Shown piece by piece: positions 5,998-37,226 of a DNA stretch of 37,299 nucleotides; position 1 is the first letter of the stretch, and every line of letters starts with the position of its first letter. The position numbers and the translations under genes are program-made. Where the stretch lies: IMG/VR virus record IMGVR_UViG_3300013103_000030, positions 1 to 37,299 of that record. The stretch is one strand, 5' to 3'. The stretch is from a virus. A model generated the notes under the pieces. That model had not been told where the DNA came from, searched no databases, and saw only the letters and a program-made list of their open reading frames with translations.

Positions 5998-6029
5998 AAG
6001 ATACGAAGCTTTCATTAGCTTCGTATCTT
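5998..6029 (+). terminator. GATACGAAGC-family hairpin, copy 1
   Basis: AAGATACGAAGCT and AGCTTCGTATCTT form a 13-bp perfect stem around the loop TTCATT, followed by TTCTTATC. It lies 17 bases after the stop of the terminase operon. This stem recurs at 11 other places in the window. Confidence 0.85.
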
Positions 6030-6052
6030 TCTTATCTATTATTTCTTTTATT

Positions 6053-6088
6053 AAAATATTTCAAATATATATTATTAATTAAGATATA
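6053..6088 (+). promoter_or_regulatory. promoter-like motif, family member 2
   Basis: ATTTCAAATATATATTATTA followed by ATTAAGATATA lies about 50 bases before the start at 6138. The 20-base core is identical to the one before the ankyrin-like gene at 21527. Promoter role inferred from this recurrence and from its place between a terminator and a start codon. Confidence 0.55.
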
Positions 6089-6137
6089 TAGGAAGCTTTT
6101 AATAAATATTAATCTTAATAGAAAAAGGAGAATTTGT

Positions 6138-7061
6138 ATGAAAAATGTTCGTGTTTTAATATCAGAATCTTTTGATTCACTTTTAGCAAATTTATCTACA
6201 TATGGAAAAACGATTACAATTGGAGCTAAATATGATGAAGGTATAGTTCCAGGTTCTATAGCTACATATGATTCAAAAGATGTGTGTATGAGAGAGAATC
6301 AAAAAATAAACGTAATGCATCCTAGTGCGATAGGAATTAGAAATTTTAATTTCAATATATTGGGTGGGATTTTATCTACGATAAATTCAAAACCGTCAAA
6401 TACTCCACAACAAAAAGGGTTTTGGATATATTTGAATTATTTAAATATCCATGGATTCAGAAGGATATTTGAATTGTCAGATTATTATAAAACTGCTATA
6501 TTTGGATATACTTCTTTTGCAAAGAAAAATCCAATTCCATATCATATGTCAGAACAACTTGCTATCAAATATCCAGTAATGGATATATCGGATAGGATTA
6601 GACTTTATGGAAATGTTTTAAAAGAAATGTTAACGAATTCAAAATCTAAGATATTACAAGATGGAAAAGAGATTTTGAAATCTTCATTGGATAAGATAGA
6701 AAAGACTCATGTTAAATCAAACAAAAGAGTAATGCTAAGATATACGGAAAATTTAAAAGAAGAATATTTCTATAATCCTAAAATGGAAATGTCTCATATG
6801 CTAATTAATTATAATGAAATATCAAAATCTTTTACTCTATCATATGCATATAACATTAGAAATAAAGCCAGGATCGAATTATCATTTTTACATAGTTTCT
6901 TTAAATCTTATAAAAAAACCGCACATCTGTATGAAATTTCTAAATCTCCTATTAAATATGTAAATGAAGTATTAGAAAATGTATCATTTGAAATGAAAGA
7001 TGTTCAAGCACTTTTTGATTATATCACGGTAAATAAAATATCTAAACCACAAGATAAATGA
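6138..7061 (+). CDS. unknown 307-aa protein
   Basis: I do not recognise it. The N-terminal half has Gly-rich beta-like stretches (TITIGAKYDEGIVPGS near 25-40, NFNILGGILSTI near 72-83). The middle is a charged helical segment at about 150-190. The C-terminal part is helical again. There is no signal peptide or membrane segment. AAAAAGGAG eight bases before ATG gives a firm start. It is a single-gene unit with its own promoter-like motif at 6053-6088 and its own hairpin at 7074-7107. Sharing the promoter motif with the ankyrin-like genes, rather than with the structural operons, suggests a common time of expression, not a known function. Confidence 0.8.
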   Translation: MKNVRVLISESFDSLLANLSTYGKTITIGAKYDEGIVPGSIATYDSKDVCMRENQKINVMHPSAIGIRNFNFNILGGILSTINSKPSNTPQQKGFWIYLNYLNIHGFRRIFELSDYYKTAIFGYTSFAKKNPIPYHMSEQLAIKYPVMDISDRIRLYGNVLKEMLTNSKSKILQDGKEILKSSLDKIEKTHVKSNKRVMLRYTENLKEEYFYNPKMEMSHMLINYNEISKSFTLSYAYNIRNKARIELSFLHSFFKSYKKTAHLYEISKSPIKYVNEVLENVSFEMKDVQALFDYITVNKISKPQDK

Positions 7062-7073
7062 TTAAAATATATA

Positions 7074-7107
7074 GAAGATACGAAGCTTTCATTAGCTTCG
7101 TATCTTC
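7074..7107 (+). terminator. GATACGAAGC-family hairpin, copy 2
   Basis: GAAGATACGAAGCT and AGCTTCGTATCTTC form a 14-bp perfect stem with loop TTCATT, 13 bases after the stop of the plus-strand 307-aa gene. Read on the minus strand it would also end any transcript started from the element at 7144-7254. Confidence 0.85.
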
Positions 7108-7143
7108 TTTATCTTTATCTATTTCTTTTTTATCTTTATATCT

Positions 7144-7254
7144 AATTTATCTAAAAGGCTTTTATAGACCCTTATCATCTCTATCTAAAAAATCTCTAAA
7201 ATAACTATATTTATGATATGCATATAGTTATACAGATTAAATAGAAATTAATCT
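7144..7254 (-). promoter_or_regulatory. repeated intergenic element, copy A (orphan promoter/leader)
   Basis: This ~110-bp element is nearly identical to 19151-19245 and similar to 27378-27478. All three hold AATTTATCTAAAAGGC at the left and a promoter-like core to the right. Read on the minus strand the core is ATAAATATAGTTATTTTAGA, matching the promoter of the gene at 7330-8184. No start codon or reading frame follows; transcription would run straight into the hairpin at 7107-7074. The distal end holds a small inverted repeat, GATTAA...TTAATC. In this copy the AAGGAG seen in B and C has become AAGGGT. An orphan promoter or a ~100-nt RNA are the two readings. Confidence 0.55.
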
Positions 7255-7279
7255 TAAAAATAAACAAAAAAGGTATATA

Positions 7280-7315
7280 GAAGATACGAAGCTTTTAATT
7301 AAGCTTCGTATCTTC
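7280..7315 (-). terminator. GATACGAAGC-family hairpin, copy 3
   Basis: GAAGATACGAAGCTT and AAGCTTCGTATCTTC form a 15-bp stem around TTAATT. It lies 14 bases beyond the stop of the minus-strand gene 7330-8184, so on that strand it acts as that gene's terminator. Confidence 0.85.
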
Positions 7316-7329
7316 CTTATCTTTTTTAT

Positions 7330-8184
7330 TTATTTTTTATAAAAATATTCAATTACCTTCAAATGATATTTCATCGTCTTTTTTAACCATAAATTAGTTT
7401 TCCAAGCCATGATCTCATTTAAATAAAATAAATTCTTAGTTACATAGAATAATTTAACGTAAGCATTAGGATTTTTCGATAATCCTTCTAAAGCTAAATC
7501 ACAAACATCATAAGCTAATTTTTGTGTTTTTTTCGTATTCAAATAAAGGATATCTAACATCTTTTTATTTTTTAAATATAAAGATGTAATCTCATGTGTC
7601 CTTTTAAATAATTCGTCATGATCATATCCAAGATCTTTAATCGTTGTAAATTTAAGATTTTTTTCCCAATCTGGCTTTTTATGTGGAATCTTCATTCCTT
7701 TCTTAAAAAGTTCATCTTCATTTATTTGTAATTCTAATCCAATTGAATCTAATGGTAATTTAGATAAATATTTCTTAGCAAGATTAATCGCTATATGTTG
7801 AATTTTAGCTAATTTATTTATATCTTTTCCATCAAAAGATTTTAATGCAGTTAAATAACTTAAGGATAAACTACCAATATTTAATCCTTCTATCGTATAT
7901 GTAAATATTCCTTTCGTGGCAATTAACATCTTTTTAGCTGTTTCATTATTAGGAGCTTTTATCGATTTAGAATAAATTTTTTCTAATTCTTCTGAAGATA
8001 AATTTTTCTTTTTTATCTTCATTAATTTTTTATTCATTTTTTCTAATTCTTCTTTTGTAGCTGGGATAAATTTATTTAAATTCTCCATTAGAAAATAAAT
8101 TTTTTGTTTAAACGTCTTTATTCTCTTTGATTGATTCGTATCTTTATTTATTATGTTAAGCATTTTCTCTAAATTTATGGTCAT
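7330..8184 (-). CDS. unknown 284-aa helical protein
   Basis: I do not recognise it. It is a Lys/Leu/Glu-rich, mostly alpha-helical protein with no signal peptide, membrane segment or catalytic motif; residues about 40-75 could form a coiled coil. The longest frame starts at 8193, but that ATG directly abuts the ribosome binding site AAAAGGAG (8194-8201 on the minus strand). The ATG at 8184, nine bases downstream, has ideal spacing and is taken as the start, dropping three residues. It is a single-gene unit with its own promoter-like element (8199-8260) and its own hairpin. It sits between two unrelated units and has no recognised partner. Confidence 0.78.
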   Translation of the reverse strand: MTINLEKMLNIINKDTNQSKRIKTFKQKIYFLMENLNKFIPATKEELEKMNKKLMKIKKKNLSSEELEKIYSKSIKAPNNETAKKMLIATKGIFTYTIEGLNIGSLSLSYLTALKSFDGKDINKLAKIQHIAINLAKKYLSKLPLDSIGLELQINEDELFKKGMKIPHKKPDWEKNLKFTTIKDLGYDHDELFKRTHEITSLYLKNKKMLDILYLNTKKTQKLAYDVCDLALEGLSKNPNAYVKLFYVTKNLFYLNEIMAWKTNLWLKKTMKYHLKVIEYFYKK

Positions 8185-8198
8185 TTTTAACATCTCCT

Positions 8199-8260
8199 TT
8201 TAAAAAATTTCTAAAATGATAATATTCATAATATCTATACGATTATGTAAATTATTTAAT
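8199..8260 (-). promoter_or_regulatory. promoter-like element, copy D
   Basis: Read on the minus strand this holds ATGAATATTATCATTTTAGA, then AATTTTTTAAAAGGAG. It aligns with the core of the three intergenic elements (ATAAATATAGTTATTTTAGA, then GATTTTTTAGATA). Here it leads directly to the ribosome binding site and start at 8184. This copy is the main reason to read the others as promoters. Confidence 0.55.
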
Positions 8261-8263
8261 TAA

Positions 8264-8309
8264 GATAAGGAAGATACGAAGCTAATGAAAGCTTCGTATC
8301 TTCCTTATC
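8264..8309 (-). terminator. GATACGAAGC-family hairpin, copy 4 (20-bp stem)
   Basis: GATAAGGAAGATACGAAGCT pairs perfectly with AGCTTCGTATCTTCCTTATC around AATGAA. This is the longest stem of the family. It lies 24 bases beyond the stop of the baseplate operon on the minus strand, where the loop reads TTCATT. Confidence 0.88.
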
Positions 8310-8333
8310 TAATTTATCTTTATTTTTTCTTTA

Positions 8334-10286
8334 TTATTCACTTGGTAGTTTAGAAATGGGATTTATTGCTGTTGTTACCTTGCCAACGAAAGAGTTTGTT
8401 CCGAATGAAAAGCCAAGTAATGTAGGATTTGCTTTAACATTACGAGTTATTAGATTGAGAATTCTAGTTTTTCTTCTGGCGTTACGCCAAAATAAAGATC
8501 TATCCCTTAATGATACTCCACCAAGATTTAAAAGATATTCATTAAAACTTGAACTTTGTCCTAATATTTCTAACCAAGATTTAGTTCCAGATACTCCCAT
8601 AAACATAGCTGAAGCTAAATCTTTTATTGAGAAAGTTACATCTACTGCGGTTGGAAAATTTTCATAACTCCATCCAAATTCAGCACTTCCTCGTTTAACA
8701 GATAAGGAATCTATTATACCTAGAGGAACACTAAATAATCCTTTTGAATAGCATCTTACTAAAAAAGGAGATGTATAAGCATTTCTACCCACTGCTCTTG
8801 GTAAAGCTGCTGCGAATATCATCAATAATGGAATATATATATTATATAAAATAGATACTCTATCTCCATATATACTTCTAAGTTGAATGGTGAAATTATA
8901 ACTTTTTGAAAATGATGAATTTTTCCATACTTCAGGAAAATCTAAATATCCATTTCCTATTAAAGTTTCACTGATTCCACCAATTCCAAATCTACTAGTT
9001 AGTCCATTAAGAAATCCTTTTAAAGATTCAAGGACGGTTCCTATTACTGGAATGTTTTCGATTCCACCAGCTGAAGATTTTAAATCTCTTATAGCAGCTG
9101 TTTTTGATTCTAAAGATTCTGCTAAAGAAGATTTTCCAATTGAATTTGAATAAGATTCACTTGAATCTGTAGATTTTTCTATTTTAAACCCAACGTATAA
9201 TTTAGATTCAGAAGTAGCAGTTGCAAATCCAGTTGCGAAATTTTTCCAAAAACTACTTTTAGAATTTCCTGCACCAGTATATTCTTTTATTTTTTCTATT
9301 TCATCATCTAAAGAAGTAATATCACCATTTTTAATTAATCTGTCATATATTTCTGTTTTTTGTAAAATAGCAAATATGTCTAATCCATGAGTCGAAAAAG
9401 CAGCTGGTAATCCATTTTTTAAAGTAGAATTAGAATCACCAATATGTCTTCCGTCTTCATTTATTTGATTAATAGATTTATTTTTAGTAGTAGTATCAGT
9501 TTCAACTTCTGCTCCATAATCATCAGAATATGCAGAAGTATCTATTTTTGCTTCTGGACTATATTCCTCTTCAACGTCATATAGATTCATATTAACAGCT
9601 AAAGTAGCTAATGCTGTATTTACTATTTTGTAATATAAAGGCATGGTTGGTTTAAAGTCATAATATCTAGTAGCATTATTTCCATACCAACCTTCTAATA
9701 ATTTATATGTATAAATAAACGGTTTTAATGGTAAAGATATAATAAATCCAATAGAAGATCCTAATAATCTAAAGAATCCAGGAATTGACCATTGATCACC
9801 TTTTTTCATTAAATTTGATAAACTTGGATTAATAGAAGTACTAAAGAAAGTAACAGGATCTACATATTTAGCAACTCCAAAAGACATATACATAATTTGT
9901 TGATTAGAATCTATGGTTTCATTATATACCCTACCTAATCCATTATCTCCATATTTATCAAGTGCAGTAAATGGATATATTATATCATCATTTTCATGAA
10001 ATTGAGGATAACAATTAATAGCATTATTTCCTCCTAATGACGTATCTCTTCTTTTTGGATTATCTAAATATCTGCTTGGTATAATAGGCTCTGTAGAATT
10101 ACCTAAGATAACATCTATATTTTTTGATAATTTTTCACATTCTTGTTTAGAATCAGTATCTATACTAAGACTTTCTTTTGTTATATATTCTAATTGTTCT
10201 TTATATGTATTAAATTGTCTCGGAATACTAACTCCAAATATATTTTTGACGATATATTCGTCATAAGTTAAATGTTCAGCCATCAT
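8334..10286 (-). CDS. tail/baseplate structural protein, gpU-like C-terminal motif
   Basis: A 650-residue protein last in the three-gene baseplate operon. The N-terminal part (1-240) is soluble with Tyr/Pro-rich stretches. The middle (about 240-400) is rich in Ser, Thr, Asp and Lys and looks like a low-complexity linker. A hydrophobic stretch near 484-496 (LLMIFAAALPRAV) precedes SLSVKRGSAEFGW and FPTAVDVTFSIKDL (527-556). That pattern resembles tube-end or baseplate proteins of contractile tails (P2 gpU-like, T4 gp48/gp54-like). Its start overlaps the previous stop as TAATG. Two ATGs stand in tandem; the second, at 10283, is equally possible. Location in a baseplate operon supports a tail-completion or tube-baseplate role. 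Family assignment is by motif only. Confidence 0.68.
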   Translation of the reverse strand: MMAEHLTYDEYIVKNIFGVSIPRQFNTYKEQLEYITKESLSIDTDSKQECEKLSKNIDVILGNSTEPIIPSRYLDNPKRRDTSLGGNNAINCYPQFHENDDIIYPFTALDKYGDNGLGRVYNETIDSNQQIMYMSFGVAKYVDPVTFFSTSINPSLSNLMKKGDQWSIPGFFRLLGSSIGFIISLPLKPFIYTYKLLEGWYGNNATRYYDFKPTMPLYYKIVNTALATLAVNMNLYDVEEEYSPEAKIDTSAYSDDYGAEVETDTTTKNKSINQINEDGRHIGDSNSTLKNGLPAAFSTHGLDIFAILQKTEIYDRLIKNGDITSLDDEIEKIKEYTGAGNSKSSFWKNFATGFATATSESKLYVGFKIEKSTDSSESYSNSIGKSSLAESLESKTAAIRDLKSSAGGIENIPVIGTVLESLKGFLNGLTSRFGIGGISETLIGNGYLDFPEVWKNSSFSKSYNFTIQLRSIYGDRVSILYNIYIPLLMIFAAALPRAVGRNAYTSPFLVRCYSKGLFSVPLGIIDSLSVKRGSAEFGWSYENFPTAVDVTFSIKDLASAMFMGVSGTKSWLEILGQSSSFNEYLLNLGGVSLRDRSLFWRNARRKTRILNLITRNVKANPTLLGFSFGTNSFVGKVTTAINPISKLPSE

Positions 10287-14352: not shown

Positions 14353-14436
14353 ATATGAATTTAACCTCTCTTTTTGTATAAAAATTATATATAATCTTTC
14401 ATAAAATATTTAAAAAATCTAATAAGGAGTTTTAAT
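14353..14436. promoter_or_regulatory. divergent promoter region of two structural operons
   Basis: These 84 bases separate the starts of the minus-strand baseplate operon and the plus-strand virion operon, so each must have its signals here. Plus strand: ATAAAATATTT at 14401-14411 before AATAAGGAG; the same ATAAAATATTT stands before the start at 20578. The ATATATnATTATTA-type motif of the other promoter family is absent, so structural operons may use a different promoter class. Confidence 0.4.
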
Positions 14437-15474: not shown

Positions 15475-15512
15475 TCGATGATCAAAATAAAAAAAGGAGT
15501 ATATATTTAAAA

Positions 15513-16508: not shown

Positions 16509-16517
16509 ATTTTAATT

Positions 16518-17542: not shown

Positions 17543-18727
17543 ATGGGAAATATATTTCGTGCAATGGAAGCTTTGGATAATTCAGATCTTAACAATGACA
17601 CTTCTTTTGATAATATAATGTTTGATATAATTGATACAGATATAGCTTATGAAGAGTTTATTAATGCTGCCAATGATTATGATGATGCTATTGAGCTTGA
17701 AGAAGATCTGGAATCATCCGTTGAAGAGATAGAGTCTCTTATAGAAGTAATTTCTAAACATGGCATCTGTAAATCTACTATTTTAGCTGCCGATCCAACT
17801 GGAGAATTTAGGAATAGAAATATTCTACCATCGGTAGAAGATGTTAATGACGTTCCTACAAATGACGAATATGCTGAAGTTTCTATCGAAGGTCTTAAGG
17901 AAATGGCTAAGAAATTTTGGGAGACCATTAAGGAATATGTAAAGAAGATATGGGAATTTATTAAAGGTCTGTTTAGTAAAGTTATACATCTTATGCAAAG
18001 TAATATAAAATTAGCCATGAAATACAAAAAGGTATTAGACGATATATCTATCGATGATAAGAAAGCTGCTGATAAAAAGGTCATGTATTTTAAGAAGGAT
18101 GCAGAAGATAAAATTGTTAATAAAAAGATTTATCATGAAGCTGGTAGTAAAATGATGATTGGAATAACAGCTATGATGGATAAAGTATCAAATGAACTTT
18201 TTGATACAAAAATCGCCGATGAGGACAAGGCTATAGCCAAAGGTATGGATCTGAAAATGAAATTACTTAAAGATGTATTGGACAAAGTTGGTGAATCTGG
18301 GGATCCTAAATTTCTCAATATGAAAGTAATATCAGAAACTGACGAAACTTATGAAATTAAAATTGAAAGTGGTGAAACAGCTTATCCGTATGATTTGGAA
18401 GAAAGATCTATTAAGAATATCAGTGTAGCAACTGATTATTATAAGAATTTATGTGAGTTGGTAATTACTGGTAAAAGAATTTCGGATATGGTTTCTTCTT
18501 TTGTGAAATCTTTTAATTCATATACGAAAAAGTTTTTGTCATATTCAGCAGCTGCTGAGAAATATATTGATAAAGAAAAAATTGAAGCTGCTAAAACAGC
18601 GGTTAAAATGGCCAAAGAAATATCTGGACTTATAGTTAAAGTACAAAAAACACTTGTATCTTGTATGACTAAATCAGATAAAGTTATGCTTACAGCAGTA
18701 GCTAAAGCAATATCTTGTCAAGTATAA
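17543..18727 (+). CDS. probable internal head protein with acidic propeptide
   Basis: A 394-residue protein in three parts. Residues 1-115 are very acidic (for example IELEEDLESSVEEIESLIE, 50-68). At 113-117 stands VSIEG, which fits the S/A/G-x-E cleavage rule known for phiKZ-type prohead proteases. Then comes an amphipathic Trp/Lys helix (KKFWETIKEYVKKIWEFIKG, 122-141), and the rest is helical, Lys-rich and lacks Cys clusters. The acidic front suits a propeptide or scaffold-like part removed during head maturation; the basic remainder suits DNA contact. The prohead protease at 34936 carries a matching ISVEG. Codons here use more G/C than in neighbours (GCC, GAC, CTT, GGT), as in abundant proteins. 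AAAGGAG eight bases upstream fixes the start; the ATG at 17536 is out of frame. Confidence 0.68.
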   Translation: MGNIFRAMEALDNSDLNNDTSFDNIMFDIIDTDIAYEEFINAANDYDDAIELEEDLESSVEEIESLIEVISKHGICKSTILAADPTGEFRNRNILPSVEDVNDVPTNDEYAEVSIEGLKEMAKKFWETIKEYVKKIWEFIKGLFSKVIHLMQSNIKLAMKYKKVLDDISIDDKKAADKKVMYFKKDAEDKIVNKKIYHEAGSKMMIGITAMMDKVSNELFDTKIADEDKAIAKGMDLKMKLLKDVLDKVGESGDPKFLNMKVISETDETYEIKIESGETAYPYDLEERSIKNISVATDYYKNLCELVITGKRISDMVSSFVKSFNSYTKKFLSYSAAAEKYIDKEKIEAAKTAVKMAKEISGLIVKVQKTLVSCMTKSDKVMLTAVAKAISCQV

Positions 18728-18757
18728 ATAAAGGAAAATATAAATAAATAAGATATA

Positions 18758-18793
18758 GAAGATACGAAGCTTTTAATTAAGCTTCGTATCTTT
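18758..18793 (+). terminator. GATACGAAGC-family hairpin, copy 5
   Basis: AGATACGAAGCTT and AAGCTTCGTATCT form the stem around TTAATT, directly followed by a run of ten T (18791-18800). The strong T-run makes this the clearest rho-independent terminator of the family on the plus strand. It ends the operon 14437-18727. Confidence 0.9.
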
Positions 18794-18886
18794 TTTTTTT
18801 AAAAATTTATAAAAAATATGTAAAGACAATATCGTCATTTTTTAAAGTAAAAAATAATATCAAAAAAAAGAAATAAAGATAAGGAA

Positions 18887-18917
18887 GATACGAAACTTTT
18901 AATTAAGCTTCGTATCT
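18887..18917 (-). terminator. damaged GATACGAAGC-family hairpin, copy 6
   Basis: The right arm is intact (AAGCTTCGTATC) but the left arm reads GATACGAAACTT, leaving an A-C mismatch inside the stem. The outer bases no longer match either. It stands just downstream, on the minus strand, of the decayed ankyrin-like gene at 18929-19063, so it was probably that gene's terminator and is decaying with it. Confidence 0.65.
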
Positions 18918-18928
18918 CCTATGGAAAA

Positions 18929-19063
18929 TTATATCATTTCATTAGAAATCTTTATTGTTCTTTTTATTATTACCTCATTATCATTTTGAAGATTCTATTC
19001 TTTAAAATCTTTAGAAAAGATTTCTCTTCTAGCCATTTTAAATAATTTATTTATTTTCCTCAT
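18929..19063 (-). pseudogene. decayed ankyrin-like repeat gene (N-terminal remnant)
   Basis: On the minus strand from 19063 the frame reads MRKINKLFKMARREIFSKDF, then KE, a TAG at 18997-18995, then NL. The intact paralog at 26727 begins MEKIRDLFKMAKNGNLPEDF, then NMWNL. Ten of the first 20 residues match without gaps. The TAG falls exactly on the conserved Trp codon (TGG), flanked by NL in both. After it similarity fades and TAA follows at 18931-18929. An upstream in-frame ATG exists at 19090, but neither start has a good ribosome binding site. Promoter-like element B lies about 90 bases upstream and the damaged hairpin follows. A functional 22-31-residue peptide cannot be excluded. Recoding of TAG is unlikely, because TAG ends the gene at 26619. 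Confidence 0.62.
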
Positions 19064-19150
19064 TTTGGATAATTTTTTATATTTTTTCATTTTTATTCTT
19101 CACTAAATAATGTATATCTAAAATATCTTAAATATATATCTAAAATATTT

Positions 19151-19245
19151 AATTTATCTAAAAGGCTTTTATAGCTCCTTATCATTCTTATCTAAAAAAT
19201 CTCTAAAATAACTATATTTATGATATGTATGTAATTATACAGGTT
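19151..19245 (-). promoter_or_regulatory. repeated intergenic element, copy B
   Basis: This is almost identical to copy A: both share AATTTATCTAAAAGGCTTTT and, further right, AATCTCTAAAATAACTATAT. On the minus strand it reads promoter-like core, then GATTTTTTAGATA, then AAGGAG, then CTATAAAAGCC. No ATG follows at ribosome-binding distance. Its downstream side leads to the decayed ankyrin-like gene, which supports reading it as a promoter and leader. Confidence 0.58.
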
Positions 19246-19319
19246 AGATTAGAGAGTTTTATATAGCTATATGAAATAAGGTTATTTAAAATTATTTTAA
19301 AAAGAAATAAAGATAATAG

Positions 19320-19349
19320 AGATACGAAGCTTTCATTAGCTTCGTATCT
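19320..19349 (-). terminator. GATACGAAGC-family hairpin, copy 7
   Basis: AGATACGAAGCT and AGCTTCGTATCT form a 12-bp stem around TTCATT (AATGAA on the minus strand). It lies 18 bases beyond the stop of the holin gene and ends the lysis unit. Confidence 0.85.
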
Positions 19350-19367
19350 TCTATATATCTCATTTAT

Positions 19368-20042
19368 TTATTTAATGGATATTCCTTTCAAATGATTTTG
19401 AATGAATTTCCCAGAAGCTCTATCAGAAAACCAAAATGTCACAACAGATATAGTTAAATATATGATTGCGCTTATAAATTGATTTATGATAGAATAAGCT
19501 CGTTCTAAAATTATACTTTTACTTGCTTGATCCATTGAAGATATAGCAACTAAGATATCATCATTTTGACCAATCAGATTTATACATGTATAACAAATAT
19601 AAACACTAGAGAGTGTATAAAAAATTGTTAATCCAGGACGTATTGATTTTTGAAATATTTCTATTATTCCTAAAAAGAAAGCCAAGATTCCTCCTAAGAA
19701 TTTAAATACGAATGAAAATGATCCTGTTGAATCTATTAATTTATCTACTGTATTATATATTCTATTCTGATTTTTGAATATTAATTTCTGTCCTTCTTTA
19801 TATATTTGCGCATCTTCTATACTTTCTTTCCCTTCGTATTCTGTATTTATTATTTTTATTTCTTGTTCTTTTTCCAATATCATAGCTTTTGATTCAGCAT
19901 CGATTCGAGCTAATTCGTGATTCTGATCTAATTTCTTTTGTTCCATATCTAATTTTTTCATTTTAATATTCATATATCCTGTAGCTAAAGAACTGACTAA
20001 TCCAGTAAGCCCGCCTAATAATGCTTCAAATGGTATTAACAT
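19368..20042 (-). CDS. holin-like membrane protein (3-TM type)
   Basis: A 224-residue protein. An N-terminal amphipathic Gly/Ala/Leu helix (1-23) is followed by a charged coiled-coil region (about 28-66). Three hydrophobic segments follow at about 111-130, 137-157 and 186-204, then a conserved-looking VTFWFSDRASGKF and a basic tail. This layout fits phage holins of the three-transmembrane class, whose last segment ends in a W-F-x-x-R motif; they open the inner membrane to time lysis. AAAGGAG lies 11 bases before the ATG, inside the end of the DUF5675 gene, and the two frames overlap by seven bases. That coupling with a probable lysis gene supports the call. Another membrane structural protein is possible. 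Confidence 0.7.
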   Translation of the reverse strand: MLIPFEALLGGLTGLVSSLATGYMNIKMKKLDMEQKKLDQNHELARIDAESKAMILEKEQEIKIINTEYEGKESIEDAQIYKEGQKLIFKNQNRIYNTVDKLIDSTGSFSFVFKFLGGILAFFLGIIEIFQKSIRPGLTIFYTLSSVYICYTCINLIGQNDDILVAISSMDQASKSIILERAYSIINQFISAIIYLTISVVTFWFSDRASGKFIQNHLKGISIK

Positions 20043-20577: not shown

Positions 20578-21375
20578 ATGGAAAATTCTATTGAATATTT
20601 ATGTAAAGAGATATATTTAAATATCCCTTTAGAAATTTTAAATGAAGCATTTAAACCAAATGAACAATCTTTAGATGCTATTATAAAAGAAAATATAATC
20701 GTCGATATAGTCTTAAGAAGGTGTAATTTATATTCAGGTAAATTAGCTAAGATCCCTCTAAAGTCATCTTATCTAGTTAAATTAGAATCTTCAAATAATA
20801 GTTTTTTAGCAAACAATACATACGTTTATAAAATTCCACTCGAAGATAGAGAATATAGGGATATTTCTCATGTTATTGCGTTATCATATCCAATAGATTA
20901 TCTCTCATCTATTTCATATTCATACAGTATGGTTAATGAACAAAAATCTATCTGTAGTATGAAAGACAGGATATTAGGATCTAATGTTAATTATGATAAT
21001 ATTCCAATAATACCAGTTCCAATATTAATGAAAAATAATATGATTAGACTTGAACCTAATTTTGAAACTAATATTCAATTCATATTATCTTGCTTATTGA
21101 AATATGATTCTAATTTTACTAACATATCACCAAATTCATTAAGATATCTTTCTCAATTATGTATATTAGCAACAAAATCTTTTATATATAATAAATTGAT
21201 TATTCCTCTTGGTTCGGCCTACCTTGTGGGCGGCCAAGAGCTTGGAAGATTCAAAGAAATTGTTGAATCTTACGAAAACGCAAATGAAGAGTTTGAAGAT
21301 AAACTGAAAAAATTTAGAGCAGCTGAGGTATTTGACAAAGATATGATGTTGGGGATGATATCTTTGATGATTTAA
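20578..21375 (+). CDS. unknown 265-aa protein with GC-richer 3' end
   Basis: I do not recognise it. Residues 1-210 form a mixed alpha/beta protein (for example IPIIPVPILMKNNMIRLEP near 141-159), encoded by the usual A/T-rich codons. From about base 21205 the DNA changes: GGTTCGGCCTACCTTGTGGG and the codons after it are clearly richer in G and C. The protein there is a charged helix (FKEIVESYENANEEFEDKLK) ending DMMLGMISLMI. AAGGAG six bases before ATG supports the start. It forms a single-gene unit ending at the hairpin 21393-21424. Position between the lysis and accessory blocks says little about function; a virion role is only a guess. Confidence 0.78.
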   Translation: MENSIEYLCKEIYLNIPLEILNEAFKPNEQSLDAIIKENIIVDIVLRRCNLYSGKLAKIPLKSSYLVKLESSNNSFLANNTYVYKIPLEDREYRDISHVIALSYPIDYLSSISYSYSMVNEQKSICSMKDRILGSNVNYDNIPIIPVPILMKNNMIRLEPNFETNIQFILSCLLKYDSNFTNISPNSLRYLSQLCILATKSFIYNKLIIPLGSAYLVGGQELGRFKEIVESYENANEEFEDKLKKFRAAEVFDKDMMLGMISLMI

Positions 21376-21392: not shown

Positions 21393-21424
21393 AGATACGA
21401 AGCTTTTAATTAAGCTTCGTATCT
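21393..21424 (+). terminator. GATACGAAGC-family hairpin, copy 8
   Basis: AGATACGAAGCTT and AAGCTTCGTATCT form the stem around TTAATT, followed by TCTTATATC. It lies 17 bases after the stop of the 265-aa gene. Confidence 0.85.
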
Positions 21425-22500: not shown

Positions 22501-22536
22501 AGAAGATATGAAGCTTTTATTAGCTTCGTATCTTCT
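22501..22536. terminator. GATACGAAGC-family hairpin, copy 9, shared by convergent genes
   Basis: AGAAGATATGAAGCT and AGCTTCGTATCTTCT pair around TTTATT with one wobble (T-G at the ATATG position on the plus-strand RNA, A-C on the minus-strand RNA). It is the only hairpin between the ankyrin-like gene and the convergent Rad50-like gene, so it probably serves both strands. Confidence 0.8.
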
Positions 22537-22553: not shown

Positions 22554-25079
22554 TTATTTTTTTATTGTTAAGTTCTCATTGTATTTTTCAGGGATAGCGA
22601 TATTATCCCTATTCAAAACAATAACGTCTCCATTAAAACCTTCCTGGAAAATTATATAATGATTCACAAGGAATATTTGACTTATTATATTTTCAGATAT
22701 TAAATATTTAAATAATTCTAATAATCTTGATTTATGGGTTTCATCTAATGCTTTATCTATTTCGTCTATAAATAATGGATACATTAATTTATTTAATATT
22801 ATCAATAATGCTAAATTAAATGATATCTTTATCATGTCTTTTTGACCAGATGATATTTTTGATATATCACTTATGTCAACATCATTTATCGTAATTGGAA
22901 ATAAGAAATCTATTTGATTTGAACTTAACTCATTTAAGGTCATTGGATAAGCTGCAATTTTAGATAAGAAGAAATTACTTATTTTAATTAATTTATCTAA
23001 AAATTCTTTTGTATATTCTAATGATATTTCTCGTAATCCTTTTTCTAATAACGATAAATTATATCTATCTTTGGTAAGGTTCCTAAGAGGGATGATTACT
23101 TCATTCTTTAATCTTTCTATGATAAATTCTTGATTCTTTATGGTATTTTTTATGGTAGATAATTTATCAGATATTTGATTAAAATAAGTAGTGATATCAT
23201 TTAAAAAAAGATTTAAAAATTCTTTCTTTTTTCTATATTCAACGGTGGTTAAAATATCATTTAATATATCTTTTTCTTTATTTAAATTATCTAAAATTTT
23301 CTTATATTCTAAATAAAAAATTAATTTTTTTTCTAATTTAGACTTATCAATATTTAATTTCTGAATTAAATCATATTTTTTCTTATATTCATCTTCATCT
23401 TGTTTTAATCTAATTTTAACAAAATCAGAAGATATTTTAGTAGAGGATTTCAATGAATTTAACTCATTTATTAAACTATCTTTTATATGTAGAAATTTTT
23501 CTTTTCTTATGATTTTTTCTATGATAGAAAAGATATATCTTAATTCTTTTATCAATAATAATGGTTCTGATATCAACAATTTCTTTATATTGATTTTTTC
23601 TTTTATTAATCGTTCTAAATGTGGACAAGTATTGAAGATAGATTTTAATTTAGATAATTTATTATGTAAAATATCTTGATTATTTATTTCTCTATTATAT
23701 CTAATTTGTACTTTTTCTAATTTAATCATCTTCTTTTTAATGGATTTATATTTCTTTATTATATGCTCATATTCATCATCAAATTTCTCACGTCCTGAGA
23801 GATATTCTATATATAAAGAACATATATCTTTTTTACAGTCTTCAGGAACGTTAAGATTCGTATATGATTTAGATTTTTCTTTCATTTTATTTTTTTTTAT
23901 ATTTAAAGAATTTATATCTAAAGATAATAATCGTATGGTATTTTTTATTTTCTCCGATTTTAATTTAAATGCATTAAGCTTGGATATAGATAATATATTG
24001 GAATGTTTATATTCTCTAAAATCATTTATCCAATCTATTAATTGCTGAAGTATATTATCTTTATTTTCATATAAAGTTTTTAATATATCAATATGCAATC
24101 CGGTATTATTATTTATATTTTCTAATTTCTTTAATTCTAATAAAGTATTTTTCAAATTGGTATCTATAAGTTCCATCTTCTCGGTTTGTGTCATATGTTT
24201 TAGATGAGTTTTATATTCTTCTATCCTTGATATTAATTTATCTATATTTATACTTTCATTATTTAACGACTCATTCATTTGAGCTAATTTAATCTTTACT
24301 AAATTTATCTTATTATCTATGTTAGAATATCTTTTATTTAATCTGGTAAATGATCTTATTAGATTATCTATTTTTTCTTTATCAAATTGAATATTAGATT
24401 CTTTTTCTATCTTATTTTCCAACATGGTTTGAATCTTAATTATCCATTGTGTAGTATTTATTTTTTCTTGTTCTAATGATTTTTTTAATTTATTCAATTC
24501 AGATAATTCATTTTTCTTTATCAATTGTTCTTTTAATTTTTCTTTTCTAGAAAATAACATAGAAATATTATTATTGACTTTATTCAATTCTTTTCTAATA
24601 CCTTTATGATATTCTGTAAAGATATCTATATTAACAGGATTAAGAGATAATAAAATTTGTTTTCGTTTAGATGGAATCATTTCGCATATATCTAAATCAC
24701 ATGATAAAATTTTTAACAATATAGGGGATATATCTAAATAAGATTCTATTAATTCTTGTTGAATATTAGCTCCTCCTCCTATATTTAATTCTTTTCCATT
24801 CTTTTTAAAACTATGAGCTTTTCCTAAAGATTTAAATTCAGAATACAATTCATAATTATCTTCATTATAAGTTAAAGATAATTTTTTCTCACCTTTCTTA
24901 TTGAAATCAGATTTAACTGGTACGGTTAATTTTAATTGTTCTAATAAAGATGATTTCCCGCTTCCATTTGTTCCTATTATACATTGAATCTTATTTGCTA
25001 TATTTAATTTAAATTCTTTTATATTAGATACTTTGAAACGTTTAAATTTATTCAGATAAATAGATGAAATAAATAGCAT
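22554..25079 (-). CDS. Rad50/SbcC/gp46-like recombination ATPase
   Basis: An 841-residue SMC-like ATPase. Walker A is GTNGSGKS (36-43). A long Lys/Glu/Leu-rich coiled coil runs from about 170 to 720, broken near its middle by a Cys pair (DCKKDIC) at the place of the Rad50 zinc hook, though spaced C-x4-C rather than CxxC. The C-terminal half-site has the signature SSGQKDMI (743-750), Walker B LFIDEID (769-775) with ALDE after it, and a switch His in LVNHY (about 806). In T4 the partner is nuclease gp47; none is seen here. Such complexes process DNA ends in recombination-dependent replication and host DNA breakdown. GGGAGG lies unusually far (13 bases) before the ATG. It is flanked by the two ankyrin-like genes. 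Confidence 0.88.
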   Translation of the reverse strand: MLFISSIYLNKFKRFKVSNIKEFKLNIANKIQCIIGTNGSGKSSLLEQLKLTVPVKSDFNKKGEKKLSLTYNEDNYELYSEFKSLGKAHSFKKNGKELNIGGGANIQQELIESYLDISPILLKILSCDLDICEMIPSKRKQILLSLNPVNIDIFTEYHKGIRKELNKVNNNISMLFSRKEKLKEQLIKKNELSELNKLKKSLEQEKINTTQWIIKIQTMLENKIEKESNIQFDKEKIDNLIRSFTRLNKRYSNIDNKINLVKIKLAQMNESLNNESINIDKLISRIEEYKTHLKHMTQTEKMELIDTNLKNTLLELKKLENINNNTGLHIDILKTLYENKDNILQQLIDWINDFREYKHSNILSISKLNAFKLKSEKIKNTIRLLSLDINSLNIKKNKMKEKSKSYTNLNVPEDCKKDICSLYIEYLSGREKFDDEYEHIIKKYKSIKKKMIKLEKVQIRYNREINNQDILHNKLSKLKSIFNTCPHLERLIKEKINIKKLLISEPLLLIKELRYIFSIIEKIIRKEKFLHIKDSLINELNSLKSSTKISSDFVKIRLKQDEDEYKKKYDLIQKLNIDKSKLEKKLIFYLEYKKILDNLNKEKDILNDILTTVEYRKKKEFLNLFLNDITTYFNQISDKLSTIKNTIKNQEFIIERLKNEVIIPLRNLTKDRYNLSLLEKGLREISLEYTKEFLDKLIKISNFFLSKIAAYPMTLNELSSNQIDFLFPITINDVDISDISKISSGQKDMIKISFNLALLIILNKLMYPLFIDEIDKALDETHKSRLLELFKYLISENIISQIFLVNHYIIFQEGFNGDVIVLNRDNIAIPEKYNENLTIKK

Positions 25080-25267: not shown

Positions 25268-25687
25268 ATGAAAAAGGAAAAAGAAATGAAAAAATTCATG
25301 AGGATATTAAAAATAATATCACTTTTAAACAATTGCTATTTTGGTGATTTTGAAAAACCATTTGAATACAAATATTTTAATTATAAAAAATACTCATGGA
25401 TATTGCCATATGTTTTCAATAATGATTTCATCGAAATTTGGTGGAATATGCAATTATTTAATGAAAAAGATTATAATGTATTAATTGTATATTGTCATAA
25501 AAGTTTTGATGTTTGGTGGAATGAAGATTTTAAAATAAATAATTGTTTTAATCTTTTACTTAAATATTGTTTTAAGAAAATAGATATTTGGTATTTACCA
25601 GAAAAACTTAATAATAAAGAAAATTCGAAATTTTTATTTCAATATACTAATATCATTACATCTAAATTAAAACATAATTATCATTGA
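25268..25687 (+). CDS. small W-rich repeat protein
   Basis: A 139-residue protein I cannot name, built from about four units of roughly 25 residues. The pattern is F-N-x-x-x-Y/F-N-x-L followed by Y-C-x-K-x-F-D-V/I-W-W, for example FNEKDYNVLIVYCHKSFDVW, then FKINNCFNLLLKYCFKKIDI. Each unit looks like a helix pair, so this is a solenoid-type repeat protein of the same size class as the ankyrin-like ones, though not the same motif. The start at 25268 has AAGGAG nine bases upstream; two earlier ATGs at 25261 and 25264 are too close to it and lead to short frames. It opens a three-gene unit that includes a Zn-ribbon gene and the second ankyrin-like gene. Confidence 0.75.
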   Translation: MKKEKEMKKFMRILKIISLLNNCYFGDFEKPFEYKYFNYKKYSWILPYVFNNDFIEIWWNMQLFNEKDYNVLIVYCHKSFDVWWNEDFKINNCFNLLLKYCFKKIDIWYLPEKLNNKENSKFLFQYTNIITSKLKHNYH

Positions 25688-25764: not shown

Positions 25765-26619
25765 ATGACAAAATTTTTAATATCTAATGTATATTCCGAT
25801 ATATGTGAATTATCTGGAAAGATACAATTCAAAGTTGTTATAAATGCGATGTCTCAGGTCAATAATCAATACGAATATTATAATACATATATATTTGGAT
25901 ATGATTCAAGATTAATGTTAGTAGATCATTCTGAATTTGAAATAAATCATCCATCAGAAAAAAAGATAATAAATAAATTATATAATATTTTATCAAAATC
26001 TTTATGTGGATATGATAATAAGCATATTGTAAATTTTCTATGTCCAATTTGTAATAATAATACATTCGTTGATTCAAATCATTATTGTATATCTATGGAT
26101 TGTATTTGTAATAATATCGAAAAAACTCTATATGAAAAGATAAATATAATCTATGGAGATATATTTGATTATGAATTATTTAAAATTTATATATATAGAA
26201 ATGCTATTGATTTAAGTTTATCTAAAATTGATATATTTTCTATATTTCATAGTTTATATTATTTGAATAAAAAATTTATGAATTCTATATCTAAAGAAAA
26301 TCAAAATAAAATAAATAGATTACTTAAATCTTTTTTTAATATGAAAATAAGTATATTTTTGAAGCTATGTAAATGTCCATTTGAATATATAGATATTTTA
26401 GATAATATAGATATTAATATACCATCTTTAGATAATCTATATATCTTATTATTTGGAAATCAAAATAATACATTTAATAAAGATATAGTTTCTTTATTTT
26501 ACATGATCGAAGATAAGAAAATATTAAATTATTTATCCATGACATTTAATATCAATTATGGGTTTATAGATAAATATATAAGATTTAAATCATATCTTAA
26601 TATTTATAATCCTATTTAG
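25765..26619 (+). CDS. unknown 284-aa protein with zinc ribbon
   Basis: The clear feature is a zinc-ribbon-like Cys cluster at about 94-116: CPIC, then 11 residues, then CISMDC and a further C (C-x2-C-x11-C-x4-C). The N-terminal 90 residues look beta-rich. The C-terminal 160 are helical and end YNPI before a TAG stop. A Cys cluster of this spacing, preceded by a beta-rich domain and followed by helices, is also the order of the OB-zinc-HhH half of NAD-dependent DNA ligases. No helix-hairpin-helix motif is obvious, so that is only a hint. The ribosome binding site is TTGGAG ten bases before ATG. No hairpin separates it from its neighbours. Confidence 0.7.
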   Translation: MTKFLISNVYSDICELSGKIQFKVVINAMSQVNNQYEYYNTYIFGYDSRLMLVDHSEFEINHPSEKKIINKLYNILSKSLCGYDNKHIVNFLCPICNNNTFVDSNHYCISMDCICNNIEKTLYEKINIIYGDIFDYELFKIYIYRNAIDLSLSKIDIFSIFHSLYYLNKKFMNSISKENQNKINRLLKSFFNMKISIFLKLCKCPFEYIDILDNIDINIPSLDNLYILLFGNQNNTFNKDIVSLFYMIEDKKILNYLSMTFNINYGFIDKYIRFKSYLNIYNPI

Positions 26620-26726: not shown

Positions 26727-27206
26727 ATGGAAAAAATAAGAGATTTGTTTAAGATGGCTAAAAATGGTAATCTTCCAGAAGATTTTAATATGTGGAATCT
26801 TTGTGATGATTATGGATGGAGCGTAGCTCACGTAGCTACATTTCACAATAAACTTCTAAAAGATTTCGATAGATGGGAAATTCGTGATGAAAAAGGTTGG
26901 ACCGTAGCTCACGAAGTTGTTAAAAATGGTAATCTTCCTAAAGATTTCGACAAATGGGAATTATGTGATAAAGAAGGATGGAGTGTAGCTCACGAAGCTG
27001 CACGTAATAATAATCTTCCAAAAGATTTTAATCAATGGGATATTAAAGATAAACATCATTGGAGTGTAGCTCATGAAGCTGCTCGATATAACTGCCTTCC
27101 AGAAGATTTTGATCAATGGGAAATTCGTAATGAAAAAGGCTGGAGTGTAGCTCAGGAATTTTTAACTAATATACTAGATAAGATGATAAATAGAATTGTA
27201 AGATAA
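26727..27206 (+). CDS. ankyrin-like 27-residue repeat protein, short paralog
   Basis: A 159-residue paralog of the gene at 21527. It has the same helical start (MEKIRDLFKMAKNG), four full 27-residue repeats, a fifth that ends early (GWSVAQEF) and a short basic tail (NILDKMINRIVR). The repeat signature LPxDFxxWxIxDxxGWSVAH is kept throughout. The number of units, five against eleven, is the main difference from the long paralog, as expected for repeat gain or loss. A 20-bp tandem duplication (27181-27220) spans the stop codon and fixes the present C-terminus. AGAGGAG 12 bases upstream supports the start. The role is unknown; it is probably protein binding. Confidence 0.83.
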   Translation: MEKIRDLFKMAKNGNLPEDFNMWNLCDDYGWSVAHVATFHNKLLKDFDRWEIRDEKGWTVAHEVVKNGNLPKDFDKWELCDKEGWSVAHEAARNNNLPKDFNQWDIKDKHHWSVAHEAARYNCLPEDFDQWEIRNEKGWSVAQEFLTNILDKMINRIVR

Positions 27207-27220: not shown

Positions 27221-27309
27221 TTCCTATGAAATTAAAAGAATATTTCCGTCCATATGGTATTAGAAAAAAGAAAGAAATTTATTTATTGATTAAGATAATT
27301 TCTTATAGA

Positions 27310-27339
27310 AGATACGAAGCTTTCATTAGCTTCGTATCT
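27310..27339 (+). terminator. GATACGAAGC-family hairpin, copy 10
   Basis: AGATACGAAGCT and AGCTTCGTATCT form a 12-bp stem around TTCATT, followed by CTTTATCTTT. It ends the unit 25268-27206, though it stands about 100 bases after the last stop, farther than other copies. Confidence 0.82.
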
Positions 27340-27377
27340 CTTTATCTTTATATCTTTATTTTTTTATCTTAATATCC

Positions 27378-27478
27378 AATTTATCTAAAAGGCTTTTATA
27401 GCTCCTTATTATTTCTATCTAAAAAATCTCTAAAATGATCATATCTACGATACATGTGTAATTATAGATTAAATAGAA
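27378..27478 (-). promoter_or_regulatory. repeated intergenic element, copy C (orphan promoter/leader)
   Basis: It shares AATTTATCTAAAAGGCTTTT and AAAAAATCTCTAAAAT with copies A and B, and GATTAAATAGAAATTAATC with copy A. The minus-strand core here is CGTAGATATGATCATTTTAG, closer to the element at the end of the window. AAGGAG follows but no start codon does. Transcription would run into the hairpin at 27339-27310. Confidence 0.55.
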
Positions 27479-27505
27479 ATTAATCCAAAAAGAAATAAAG
27501 ATAAG

Positions 27506-27541
27506 GAAGATACGAAGCTTAATTAAAAGCTTCGTATCTTC
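27506..27541 (-). terminator. GATACGAAGC-family hairpin, copy 11
   Basis: GAAGATACGAAGCTT and AAGCTTCGTATCTTC form a 15-bp perfect stem around AATTAA. It lies 14 bases beyond the stop of the tube gene and ends the sheath-tube operon on the minus strand. Confidence 0.87.
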
Positions 27542-27555
27542 TATATCTCATTTAT

Positions 27556-28416
27556 TTATATTTCTTTAAATTCATTTACAATTTCTTCTATTTCAGCGGA
27601 TATTCCAGTATCACTAAGTTTATGATCAATTTCTGTAGTTATTGGAATTTGATTGTCAAAATTGGCTTCATGAAGTTTAAGCATTTCCATAATTGTTTGA
27701 CAAGCTCTATAAGTAGAAGTTGATTTTTGAAGGACTGCATTAAATTCGATCGATCTCTCTTTACCTTCAACATCTCCACCAACTTCTCTCTTCACTCCAA
27801 GTTCACCACCATTATTCTTTGGCCACATACAAGTTAGAAAATATCCATCAATTATGTTCTTTGGAAGCAATGTAACATCGGGTTGGATTACTGCGATATC
27901 CATTGAGAAATATGAAAATACTAATGGATCTATTTCAGTTGAATTTAATACTGAAGATAATTTTGAATATCCGGTATTAGGATCACTCATCATAATAATC
28001 CAAGTTTCAAAAAATCTACTAACTAAATTTCCAGCTACTTCTTTAATTGTAAATGTTGGTGTTAATTGATCATATTTAGATATACCAGGCATCATAACTG
28101 GTTGTCCATTTTCCATTGTGTATCCATCTACTTCGGAAATGGTTAGATTAGGAGAAATTCCATCTACAGATTGAGCTTGACGTCCTATTAATGTAGTTAA
28201 AATCTCATTAGCATATGGGATTTCATCAAACATATCTGGCGTATGAGTTACAATAATTAATGCATTTGGAAATACTAATGGGGTGGCTGCATCAATGTTT
28301 GGAATCCTAGGTCCTACTCCAAGCTGTCCACCTTTAATAATATTACTATAAACTTGATTAGTTTTACCAGCAAAATAATCAACGTTCTTTATTAAACTAT
28401 CTTTCATCGTTGGCAT
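27556..28416 (-). CDS. tail tube protein (probable)
   Basis: A 286-residue protein directly downstream of the tail sheath, where myoviruses keep the tube gene. Its size and mixed beta-rich make-up fit (TPTFTIKEVAGNLVSRFFET near 119-138; PKNIIDGYFLTCMWPKNN near 185-202; RSIEFNAVLQKSTSTY near 222-237). Several tube proteins of large myophages carry a similar 'PNALIIVTHTPDMF'-like early strand and a late acidic helix, as seen here at 267-286. The tube is the inner channel exposed when the sheath contracts. AAAGGAG 11 bases before ATG supports the start. The gap to the sheath stop is 29 bases, and the hairpin at 27506 ends the operon. Position and length carry most of the call. Confidence 0.72.
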   Translation of the reverse strand: MPTMKDSLIKNVDYFAGKTNQVYSNIIKGGQLGVGPRIPNIDAATPLVFPNALIIVTHTPDMFDEIPYANEILTTLIGRQAQSVDGISPNLTISEVDGYTMENGQPVMMPGISKYDQLTPTFTIKEVAGNLVSRFFETWIIMMSDPNTGYSKLSSVLNSTEIDPLVFSYFSMDIAVIQPDVTLLPKNIIDGYFLTCMWPKNNGGELGVKREVGGDVEGKERSIEFNAVLQKSTSTYRACQTIMEMLKLHEANFDNQIPITTEIDHKLSDTGISAEIEEIVNEFKEI

Positions 28417-28445
28417 ATTCTATTTTTCTCCTTTAATTAGCATTT

Positions 28446-31010: not shown

Positions 31011-31085
31011 AATCTAACCTCGCTTTGTATATTATTTATTTAAAATGATATAGAAATACATTTTTATCTAAAAGGAGAAAATAAA

Positions 31086-32129: not shown

Positions 32130-32135
32130 AAGCTT

Positions 32136-34883: not shown

Positions 34884-34935
34884 CATGACATAATATAGAA
34901 AAAATCATTAGATATCTAAAGGAGTAAATTAAATT

Positions 34936-35745: not shown

Positions 35746-35769
35746 TAGGGAGGAAAGGAAAAAATATAT

Positions 35770-36405
35770 ATGGAAAAAGATATATTAGATTTTATTGATA
35801 AAAAAAGTAATAAAATCAATAAAGAATATAAGAAAGAATATGATAAATTTGTAGGAAGTAAAATCCTTCATTCTTCAGAATGTTTACTCATAATCGAAGA
35901 TGTAGTTGATAATGCATATAAAATATACATTTTCGATATCATAAGTTGTGATATTATAGATTATCATAGACTTATAGATTTATTACATATGGTAACGAAA
36001 GACGATGAAGTTAAGATATATATTGATTCTTTTGGGGGAAGTGTACAGACTGGATGTATGATATGTGCCGCAATGGAAGATTGTAAAGCTCATATTACCA
36101 CTTATGCATTAGACATGGCTTTTAGTATGGGTTCCACAATATGGGCATTTGGAGATACGTTAGAATTATTTCCTGGAGCTATCATAATGTTCCACAATAT
36201 GTCAACTTTTATGTATGGTTATTTAGGTGATATAAGAACAGATTTGAAAATTAAAGAGGATATATTCGATCGTATATTAGAAATATCTATAAAGAAAGGA
36301 ATATTATTACAAGAAGAAAAAGATGATATTATAAATAAGAATAAAGATATTTATATCCCTTATGAAGAAATGATTAAACGTTTAGATCGTATTAAGGAGC
36401 AATAA
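35770..36405 (+). CDS. ClpP-like serine protease
   Basis: A 211-residue protein of the ClpP/crotonase fold. IYIDSFGGSVQTGCMICAAM (83-102) is the oxyanion GG motif region. ALDMAFSMGSTIWAFGD (113-129) holds the nucleophile Ser119. IIMFHNMS (138-145) holds His142. NKDIYIPYEEM (191-201) gives the candidate third residue Asp193. The catalytic set therefore looks complete, and length is close to that of host ClpP (about 195-205 aa). No ClpX-like partner is present in the window. It lies 24 bases after the gp21-like prohead protease, within the head operon. ClpP-fold enzymes serve as prohead proteases in some phages, so a second head protease is one reading and modification of host proteolysis another. 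GGAGGAAAGG before ATG is a strong start signal. Confidence 0.85.
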   Translation: MEKDILDFIDKKSNKINKEYKKEYDKFVGSKILHSSECLLIIEDVVDNAYKIYIFDIISCDIIDYHRLIDLLHMVTKDDEVKIYIDSFGGSVQTGCMICAAMEDCKAHITTYALDMAFSMGSTIWAFGDTLELFPGAIIMFHNMSTFMYGYLGDIRTDLKIKEDIFDRILEISIKKGILLQEEKDDIINKNKDIYIPYEEMIKRLDRIKEQ

Positions 36406-36412
36406 ATAAATT

Positions 36413-37180
36413 ATGATAATAGAAGAGTTAGAAAAAGAAATTGCATTTGATGATAAATTAATTAGTTTAGAAACTTTGACATTTGATCAAACTGATATTA
36501 TAACTAACTATACTAATCTTATTAATTATCGTCAAAAACAAAAACAGATAATAAAAGAAAAATTATATTCTGACGAAAAACAATCATTAGCACCAGTTGG
36601 ACAATCTTCTAAAGTGAAAGAACGTTTATTTAAAAAGTTATCTAATACAGAATATTCTTTTTATTTTGACTTTAATGTATTTTTTGATATTATATATACT
36701 GAAAAGAAAATAGCTTTTTTTAGAGATATTGTAGATTTTAAGAATTTAATAAATGAAAATTATGAGAAATTTGGATTAATTACAATTTTACATTTTTATC
36801 CATCTGTTTCCATGTCTAATTCAATGATAGATATTGGAATTTTTGATGGTATAATTGATTTTATGAAGGATGATGGATTAGAAATACATGCTCATTTTTC
36901 AAATCCATTTATGGGCTTAATAGATGTTTATTTTGCATGTAAATATGGTGATAAATTAAAGTTTTATGAAAATATTTCATCAATTAAAATGTCATTATCA
37001 GTAATAGATTCTTTTTCTGATGACATTAAAAAGTCTATGAAATCTTTTTTTAGAATAAAATTAAATACCATTATGGATAGAGGTATAATAACAGAAGAAG
37101 AATTAGAGACATTATTAGCTAATGATATCGTTGCATTAATTATAAATAATGAAGAATTAAAGAAACGAATAAAACAATAA
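36413..37180 (+). CDS. unknown 255-aa protein, end of head operon
   Basis: I do not recognise it. The first 65 residues are acidic and helical and include ISLETLTFDQ (16-25), where S-L-E could be a prohead-protease site. The middle is Phe/Asp/Tyr-rich (YSFYFDFNVFFDIIYTEKKI near 81-100) and the end is helical. The ribosome binding site AAGGAG lies within the last codons of the ClpP-like gene, 13 bases before the ATG, so the two are translated in step. As last gene of the operon next to two proteases it may be a core, scaffold or head protein, but this is position-based only. The hairpin at 37193 ends the unit. Confidence 0.76.
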   Translation: MIIEELEKEIAFDDKLISLETLTFDQTDIITNYTNLINYRQKQKQIIKEKLYSDEKQSLAPVGQSSKVKERLFKKLSNTEYSFYFDFNVFFDIIYTEKKIAFFRDIVDFKNLINENYEKFGLITILHFYPSVSMSNSMIDIGIFDGIIDFMKDDGLEIHAHFSNPFMGLIDVYFACKYGDKLKFYENISSIKMSLSVIDSFSDDIKKSMKSFFRIKLNTIMDRGIITEEELETLLANDIVALIINNEELKKRIKQ

Positions 37181-37192
37181 ATAAGATATATA

Positions 37193-37226
37193 GAAGATAC
37201 GAAGCTTTCATTAGCTTCGTATCTTC
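37193..37226 (+). terminator. GATACGAAGC-family hairpin, copy 12
   Basis: GAAGATACGAAGCT and AGCTTCGTATCTTC form a 14-bp perfect stem around TTCATT, followed by TTTATTTCTTTATTTCTTTTT. It lies 12 bases after the stop of the head operon. Confidence 0.88.

Follow-up and report, generated by a model that had tools for sequence, protein, structure and literature searches.

Near-identical hairpins at the gene ends of a phiKZ-like jumbo-phage fragment: probable intrinsic-type terminators evolving in concert

Twelve of the 13 hairpin-bearing gene ends in a phiKZ-like phage fragment carry the same stem-loop. The explanation that we favour, and hold to be probable, is that these hairpins are intrinsic-type terminators acting as RNA structure, a single hairpin having spread by copying to almost all gene ends of the genome, its copies staying alike. 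Judged from sequence, such terminators would be ordinary in function and unusual in their concerted evolution.

The fragment, hereafter the window, is a solitary viral contig of 37.3 kb (IMG/VR record IMGVR_UViG_3300013103_000030, positions 1–37,299) with a GC content of 24%. By its gene content, it is a divergent fragment of a phiKZ-like jumbo phage: it encodes a terminase ~37% identical to PHIKZ025 (phiKZ gp25), a sheath of the phiKZ gp29 type, an S80 prohead protease, a phiKZ internal head protein, a PHIKZ087 homologue and two tail-tube-like families, and its proteins match PF20961, PF20034 and PF12699 (the phiKZ-type sheath, protease and head set). No RNA polymerase gene was detected within the 37 kb fragment. 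Relatives were gathered via alignment queries, the nearest IMG/VR contigs found showing 42–46% identity in terminase or sheath.

Sequence and placement of the hairpin family

The family comprises twelve hairpins with the arms GATACGAAGC/GCTTCGTATC, with 2 changes in their 240 arm bases (Table 1). All had been listed in the initial annotation and are present within 0–3 nt of the positions given there. The stems, described as 12–20 bp, run uninterrupted for 12–21 bp and enclose 6-nt loops of the same three types (TTCATT/AATGAA, TTAATT/AATTAA and TTTATT), which occur in either orientation. Two arm spacings are found, 18 and 20 nt from start to start, and the extended stem reaches up to 20–21 bp with few flaws. 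In the orientation of the neighbouring gene, the copies give the consensus AGATATAGAA-GATACGAAGCT-loop-AGCTTCGTATC-TTCyTTATCTTTATTTC, 11 of the 21 stem pairs being invariant across the twelve copies, and core and loop are far more similar among copies than are the immediate flanks. At one mismatch or fewer, the 10-mer arm occurs 26 times in the window against 0.68 expected in shuffles; 24 of these half-sites are paired into the twelve hairpins, and the other two are lone near-matches (8133 and 29228, one mismatch). A covariance model built from the twelve copies found no thirteenth in the window.

Every copy is intergenic (12/12; chance ~1.5e-13 given that the window is 91.5% coding). Ten lie 11–29 nt past a stop codon, one lies at 103 nt and one follows a decayed gene; this last, at 18884, fits the gene-end rule because the decayed start of an ankyrin gene precedes it. 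The sole exception among hairpin-bearing ends, which the initial annotation had set apart at 956–993 and which is here placed at 955–994, proved unrelated, so that the family sequence cannot be obligatory at gene ends. The broader observation that the hairpin ends almost every transcription unit is confirmed, with the refinement that no comparable hairpin was seen after 25268–25687 or 25765–26619.

Ankyrin-repeat genes are present in this jumbo phage at 21527–22489 and 26727–27206, in addition to the decayed third start (ATG 19063, minus strand), and one relative (L237) has a homologue at ~41%.

Table 1. Hairpins, intergenic modules and R elements of the window
Feature	Position	Strand	Context
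Unrelated hairpin, sole exception	955..994	+	18 bp, T-rich tail, after gene 326-931
Family hairpin	5997..6030	+	15 nt past stop of 4740-5981 (+)
Family hairpin	7073..7108	+	11 nt past stop of 6138-7061 (+); left end of module M1
Family hairpin	7280..7315	-	14 nt past stop of 7330-8193 (-); right end of M1
Family hairpin	8263..8310	-	Longest perfect stem, 21 bp; 23 nt past stop of 8334-10286 (-)
Family hairpin	18757..18794	+	T run behind; 29 nt past stop of 17543-18727 (+)
Family hairpin	18884..18919	-	Downstream of decayed ankyrin-gene start, ATG at 19063 (-); no intact gene
Family hairpin	19319..19350	-	17 nt past stop of 19368-20042 (-); right end of module M2
Family hairpin	21393..21424	+	17 nt past stop of 20578-21375 (+)
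Family hairpin	22501..22536	+	Convergent gap, 21527-22489 (+) / 22554-25079 (-); can serve both genes
Family hairpin	27310..27339	+	103 nt past stop of 26727-27206 (+); left end of module M3
Family hairpin	27505..27542	-	13 nt past stop of 27556-28416 (-); right end of M3
Family hairpin	37192..37227	+	11 nt past stop of 36413-37180 (+)
Module M1	7060..7345	.	Hairpin, R element, hairpin; convergent gap
Module M2	18870..19365	.	Homologous to M1/M3; insertion bearing decayed ankyrin start
Module M3	27295..27565	.	Hairpin, R element, hairpin; convergent gap
R element copies	7141-7252, 19153-19263, 27372-27480	-	~110 nt, 85-89% identical
R element, partial copy	~37259-37299	+	

Gene ends of relatives and a possible sequence-reading phage factor

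Seven phage regions and 80 IMG/VR loci, supplemented later by others, were screened for hairpins whose stems span 11 bp or more, giving 1112 hairpins on 164 contigs, the window included. A 10-mer arm is shared by 55 of 91 hairpin pairs in the window (60%), against 22 of 4670 pairs within relatives' contigs, window excluded (0.47%), and 0.063% of pairs between contigs, which upholds the earlier argument that identity of sequence needs a reason beyond structure. Gene-end hairpins in the window have a mean arm identity of 0.87; in none of the 38 other loci used for comparison does it exceed 0.65. Long near-perfect hairpins likewise stand at unit ends in phiKZ, BpSp, PBS1 and the IMG/VR relatives, on both strands and often common to convergent genes; unlike those of the window, however, their stems differ from gene to gene. 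A single shared terminator sequence is not normal in the phiKZ-like group. In some relatives a few stems of the same genome do have their outer portion in common, a weak general tendency to stem sharing. In L250, L043, L084, L086 and L288 the outer stem is partly common to the terminators of one genome, and many of the 3′ arms finish in TATG, the phiKZ late promoter motif.

At the homologous ends of 4740–5981, 8334–10286, 20578–21375 and 27556–28416, a hairpin no more than 75 nt from the stop was found in 65 relatives, ~42–46% identical at closest in conserved proteins, and none of the 65 carries GATACGAAGC; the group therefore needs a hairpin at these ends, and not the family sequence. Searched against 1.76 Mb of relatives, the covariance model returned a sole match at E < 0.01 (L033 8484, E 0.0007), which sits after a tRNA-like 3′ end, has two pairs changed on both sides and may be a distant cousin or a chance hit. 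The search that the initial annotation had proposed brought no clear family member to light among the relatives.

The exact arm pattern matched no other contig in IMG/VR, the relaxed pattern gave single matches only, and Rfam held nothing convincing for the hairpin. Single matches in Rickettsiaceae and others in a scan of a genome collection look like chance. Matches in the GC-rich Rhodospirillaceae bin-0134 have the same 10-mer arms, but there they belong to long, GC-rich stems that look like an unrelated dispersed repeat and were set aside; that bin carries a dispersed palindrome in ~20 copies, GATACGAAGCCCGAATGAATCATCCGGGCTTCGTATC being one example (most loci of L008 to L030), and the arm match is an apparent coincidence. 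The literature searched, from which most subscription papers were missing, yielded no account of a phage whose terminators have a single sequence in common.

One relative, G001 (IMG/VR 3300020048_000159; GC 28% in the part first read), resembles the window in having several near-identical gene-end hairpins in one genome, with five copies of ATACTACTACCATATGGTAGTAGTAT (at no more than 2 mismatches) in 59 kb. It differs in the sequence itself (ATACTACTACC-ATAT-GGTAGTAGTAT) and in the minority share that the repeat takes of the hairpins in the part read, most of those in 29 kb falling outside the repeated family. The copies read in context, two in L061 and one in L341, are all at gene ends, as is a further loop variant in L341; their flanks are unlike one another and the borders of the unit are sharp. 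Because the G001 repeat is of a different sequence, a repeated terminator arose at least twice, with unrelated sequences, and in G001 it does not take over every site.

These comparisons bear on the foremost alternative, that a phage protein (a polymerase part, an RNA-binding factor or an endonuclease) recognises GATACGAAGC/GCTTCGTATC as a sequence-specific terminator or processing signal, which we judge unlikely. Such a factor would be in keeping with a core that is near-invariant in twelve copies and in which 11 of 21 pairs never vary, with right-hand arms that are unchanged where the R flanks of the modules diverge by 11–15%, and with the greater likeness of core and loop than of immediate flanks, which can be read as sequence constraint; the genome-specific hairpin of G001 would in turn suit a factor that co-evolves. 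Against this, the relatives' homologous gene ends bear unrelated stems, one unit of the window itself ends in another hairpin (955–994), and most hairpins in 29 kb of G001 stand outside its repeated family. The two arm spacings and the two loop orientations are, moreover, unsuited to a DNA dimer or a loop reader, and a DNA-binding-dimer reading was rejected on these grounds. The initial annotation had suggested recognition by a phage factor or RNA 3′-end processing and had named unrelated stems at the same gene ends of relatives as the finding that would tell against both; such stems are what the relatives carry, and both suggestions lose support, although the closest relatives found, only ~42–46% identical in conserved proteins, are too distant for this to be decisive.

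Terminator-like anatomy and probable selection at the RNA level

By anatomy, the family hairpins look like intrinsic-type transcription terminators. In the sense orientation the twelve are A-rich on the 5′ side and U-rich in the 3′ tail (T makes up 67% of the 10 nt after the arm core, against 24% of the 10 nt before), and like known intrinsic (Rho-independent) terminators they place a stem-loop just past the stop; terminator-like sites numbered 17 and 15, against 2.6 and 3.2 expected. They depart from the known type in the U tract, which in most copies is interrupted (TTCTTTATCTTTATTTC) and not a pure T run. Intrinsic terminators also ordinarily share structure only, whereas here 12 of 13 ends share one stem sequence. 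Transcripts would end at these hairpins, and the enzyme acting there would be the phage's own multisubunit RNA polymerase; the stopping of such jumbo-phage polymerases is, to our knowledge, little studied.

Across 235 gene-end hairpins of relatives the tail is weaker (T 0.45 after versus 0.29 before). At the relatives' non-convergent ends, sense-strand stem flaws comprise 64 G-U against 12 A-C pairs (p 5e-10), and this bias argues that selection acts on the sense-strand RNA hairpin. At convergent ends the two kinds are even (40 G-U and 38 A-C), as expected for hairpins that can be counted from both sides. In the window, each of the two core changes still allows wobble pairing in the sense RNA: G to A (+ strand) at 18884..18919 gives a G-U pair in the minus-strand RNA, and C to T at 22501..22536 gives a U-G pair in the plus-strand RNA. 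Pooled over all stem pairs of the window, the counts are 9 G-U versus 7 A-C, which is not significant. No double compensatory changes were found in the core arms among the twelve copies, which recent copying explains, and selection on sequence would explain equally well.

Less likely again, and in our view distinctly doubtful, is that the hairpins serve mainly as 3′-end processing or stability elements (RNase III-type cleavage or an exonuclease block), with termination lying elsewhere. The extended stem of 20–21 bp, with its few flaws, is long enough for a double-strand RNase, and the sense-strand G-U bias suits any RNA-level role, but the conserved U-rich tail on the sense side is a feature of terminators that processing does not need. 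Under the terminator reading, the hairpin would work as RNA structure, its particular sequence being immaterial to termination.

Intergenic modules, probable copying and other dispersed repeats

Two processes probably contributed to the spread of the terminators. Whole intergenic modules, each made up of a hairpin, a promoter-like R element and a hairpin, would have been duplicated, and the palindrome alone would have been copied, in one orientation or the other. The homologous modules M1, M2 and M3 occupy three convergent gaps. The R element always lies just downstream of a family hairpin, on the same strand, and consists of a promoter-like stretch, also present upstream of gene 7330–8193, followed by AAGGAGCTATAAAAGCCTTTTAGATAAATT. 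No ORF is evident in it, and R elements are possibly a small-RNA family whose members end at the next hairpin.

Two lines of evidence concern the palindrome itself. Hairpins 7280 and 27505 match over 50 nt when one of them is inverted but over only 15 nt as they stand, with R flanks that are 85% identical in direct alignment; 50 nt would remain unchanged at 15% divergence with a probability of ~3e-4 (0.85 to the power 50), and an inverted 50-nt identity inside flanks diverged by 15% points to recent copying. The right-hand hairpins of M1, M2 and M3, in turn, have three different loops, which fits copying or conversion of the palindrome in either orientation after module duplication. Among the three reasons originally offered for the sequence identity, gene conversion or copying among sites is accordingly the best supported, by the inverted identical unit, by the differing loops at homologous sites and by G001. 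The simplest copying route would be template switching during replication, as in quasipalindrome mutagenesis; it is possible between copies because every arm is able to base-pair, from its 3′ end, with an arm of each of the others, and we infer that this was the route taken.

More tentatively, some jumbo-phage lineages could have a terminator dialect of their own, a palindrome either spread by orientation-blind copying or serving as the target of a co-evolving polymerase termination factor, with the terminators evolving in concert. Concerted evolution of this kind would mislead annotation and motif searches that take a shared sequence for a protein-binding site. Twelve near-identical terminators are also a natural substrate for the study of termination by jumbo-phage polymerases, and the window and G001 together offer a comparison of two genome-specific terminators.

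It is more improbable still than a processing role that the palindrome is a mobile REP/MITE-like element, mobilised by an enzyme of the phage or its host, termination being a side effect that decides where copies survive. Like REP/MITE palindromes, the copies are dispersed and occur in both orientations, and both the sharp unit borders in G001 and the ~50 nt unit common to unlinked sites are what such an element would leave. The copies of the window nevertheless all lie at gene ends or at a decayed gene end, with none inside genes; no transposase or similar enzyme was recognised among the genes of the window, which is a fragment of a larger genome, and neither a target-site duplication nor a fixed flanking word was seen by inspection.

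An uptake-signal-like dispersed word, doubled at terminators, is very improbable: the neisserial DUS, a 10-mer whose inverted pairs form terminators (PMC2397512), does resemble the inverted pairs of a 10-nt word at the gene ends of the window, but DUS also occur as isolated singles, whereas here two one-mismatch singles stand against 24 paired half-sites, with no excess of isolated single words and no uptake sign. The reading was rejected for this paucity of single half-sites, and no AT-rich host with many copies of the arm pair emerged when 84,980 species genomes were scanned for the pattern.

Two other repeats were observed in the window. A 24-nt tandem repeat with TTTTTTGTACTACGG is present in two copies at 45–92, near the contig end, and an AT-rich word of the form ATTTATAnATATATATTATTA recurs ahead of plus-strand units (genes 326, 6138, 21527, 25268 and 26727) as a candidate phage promoter.
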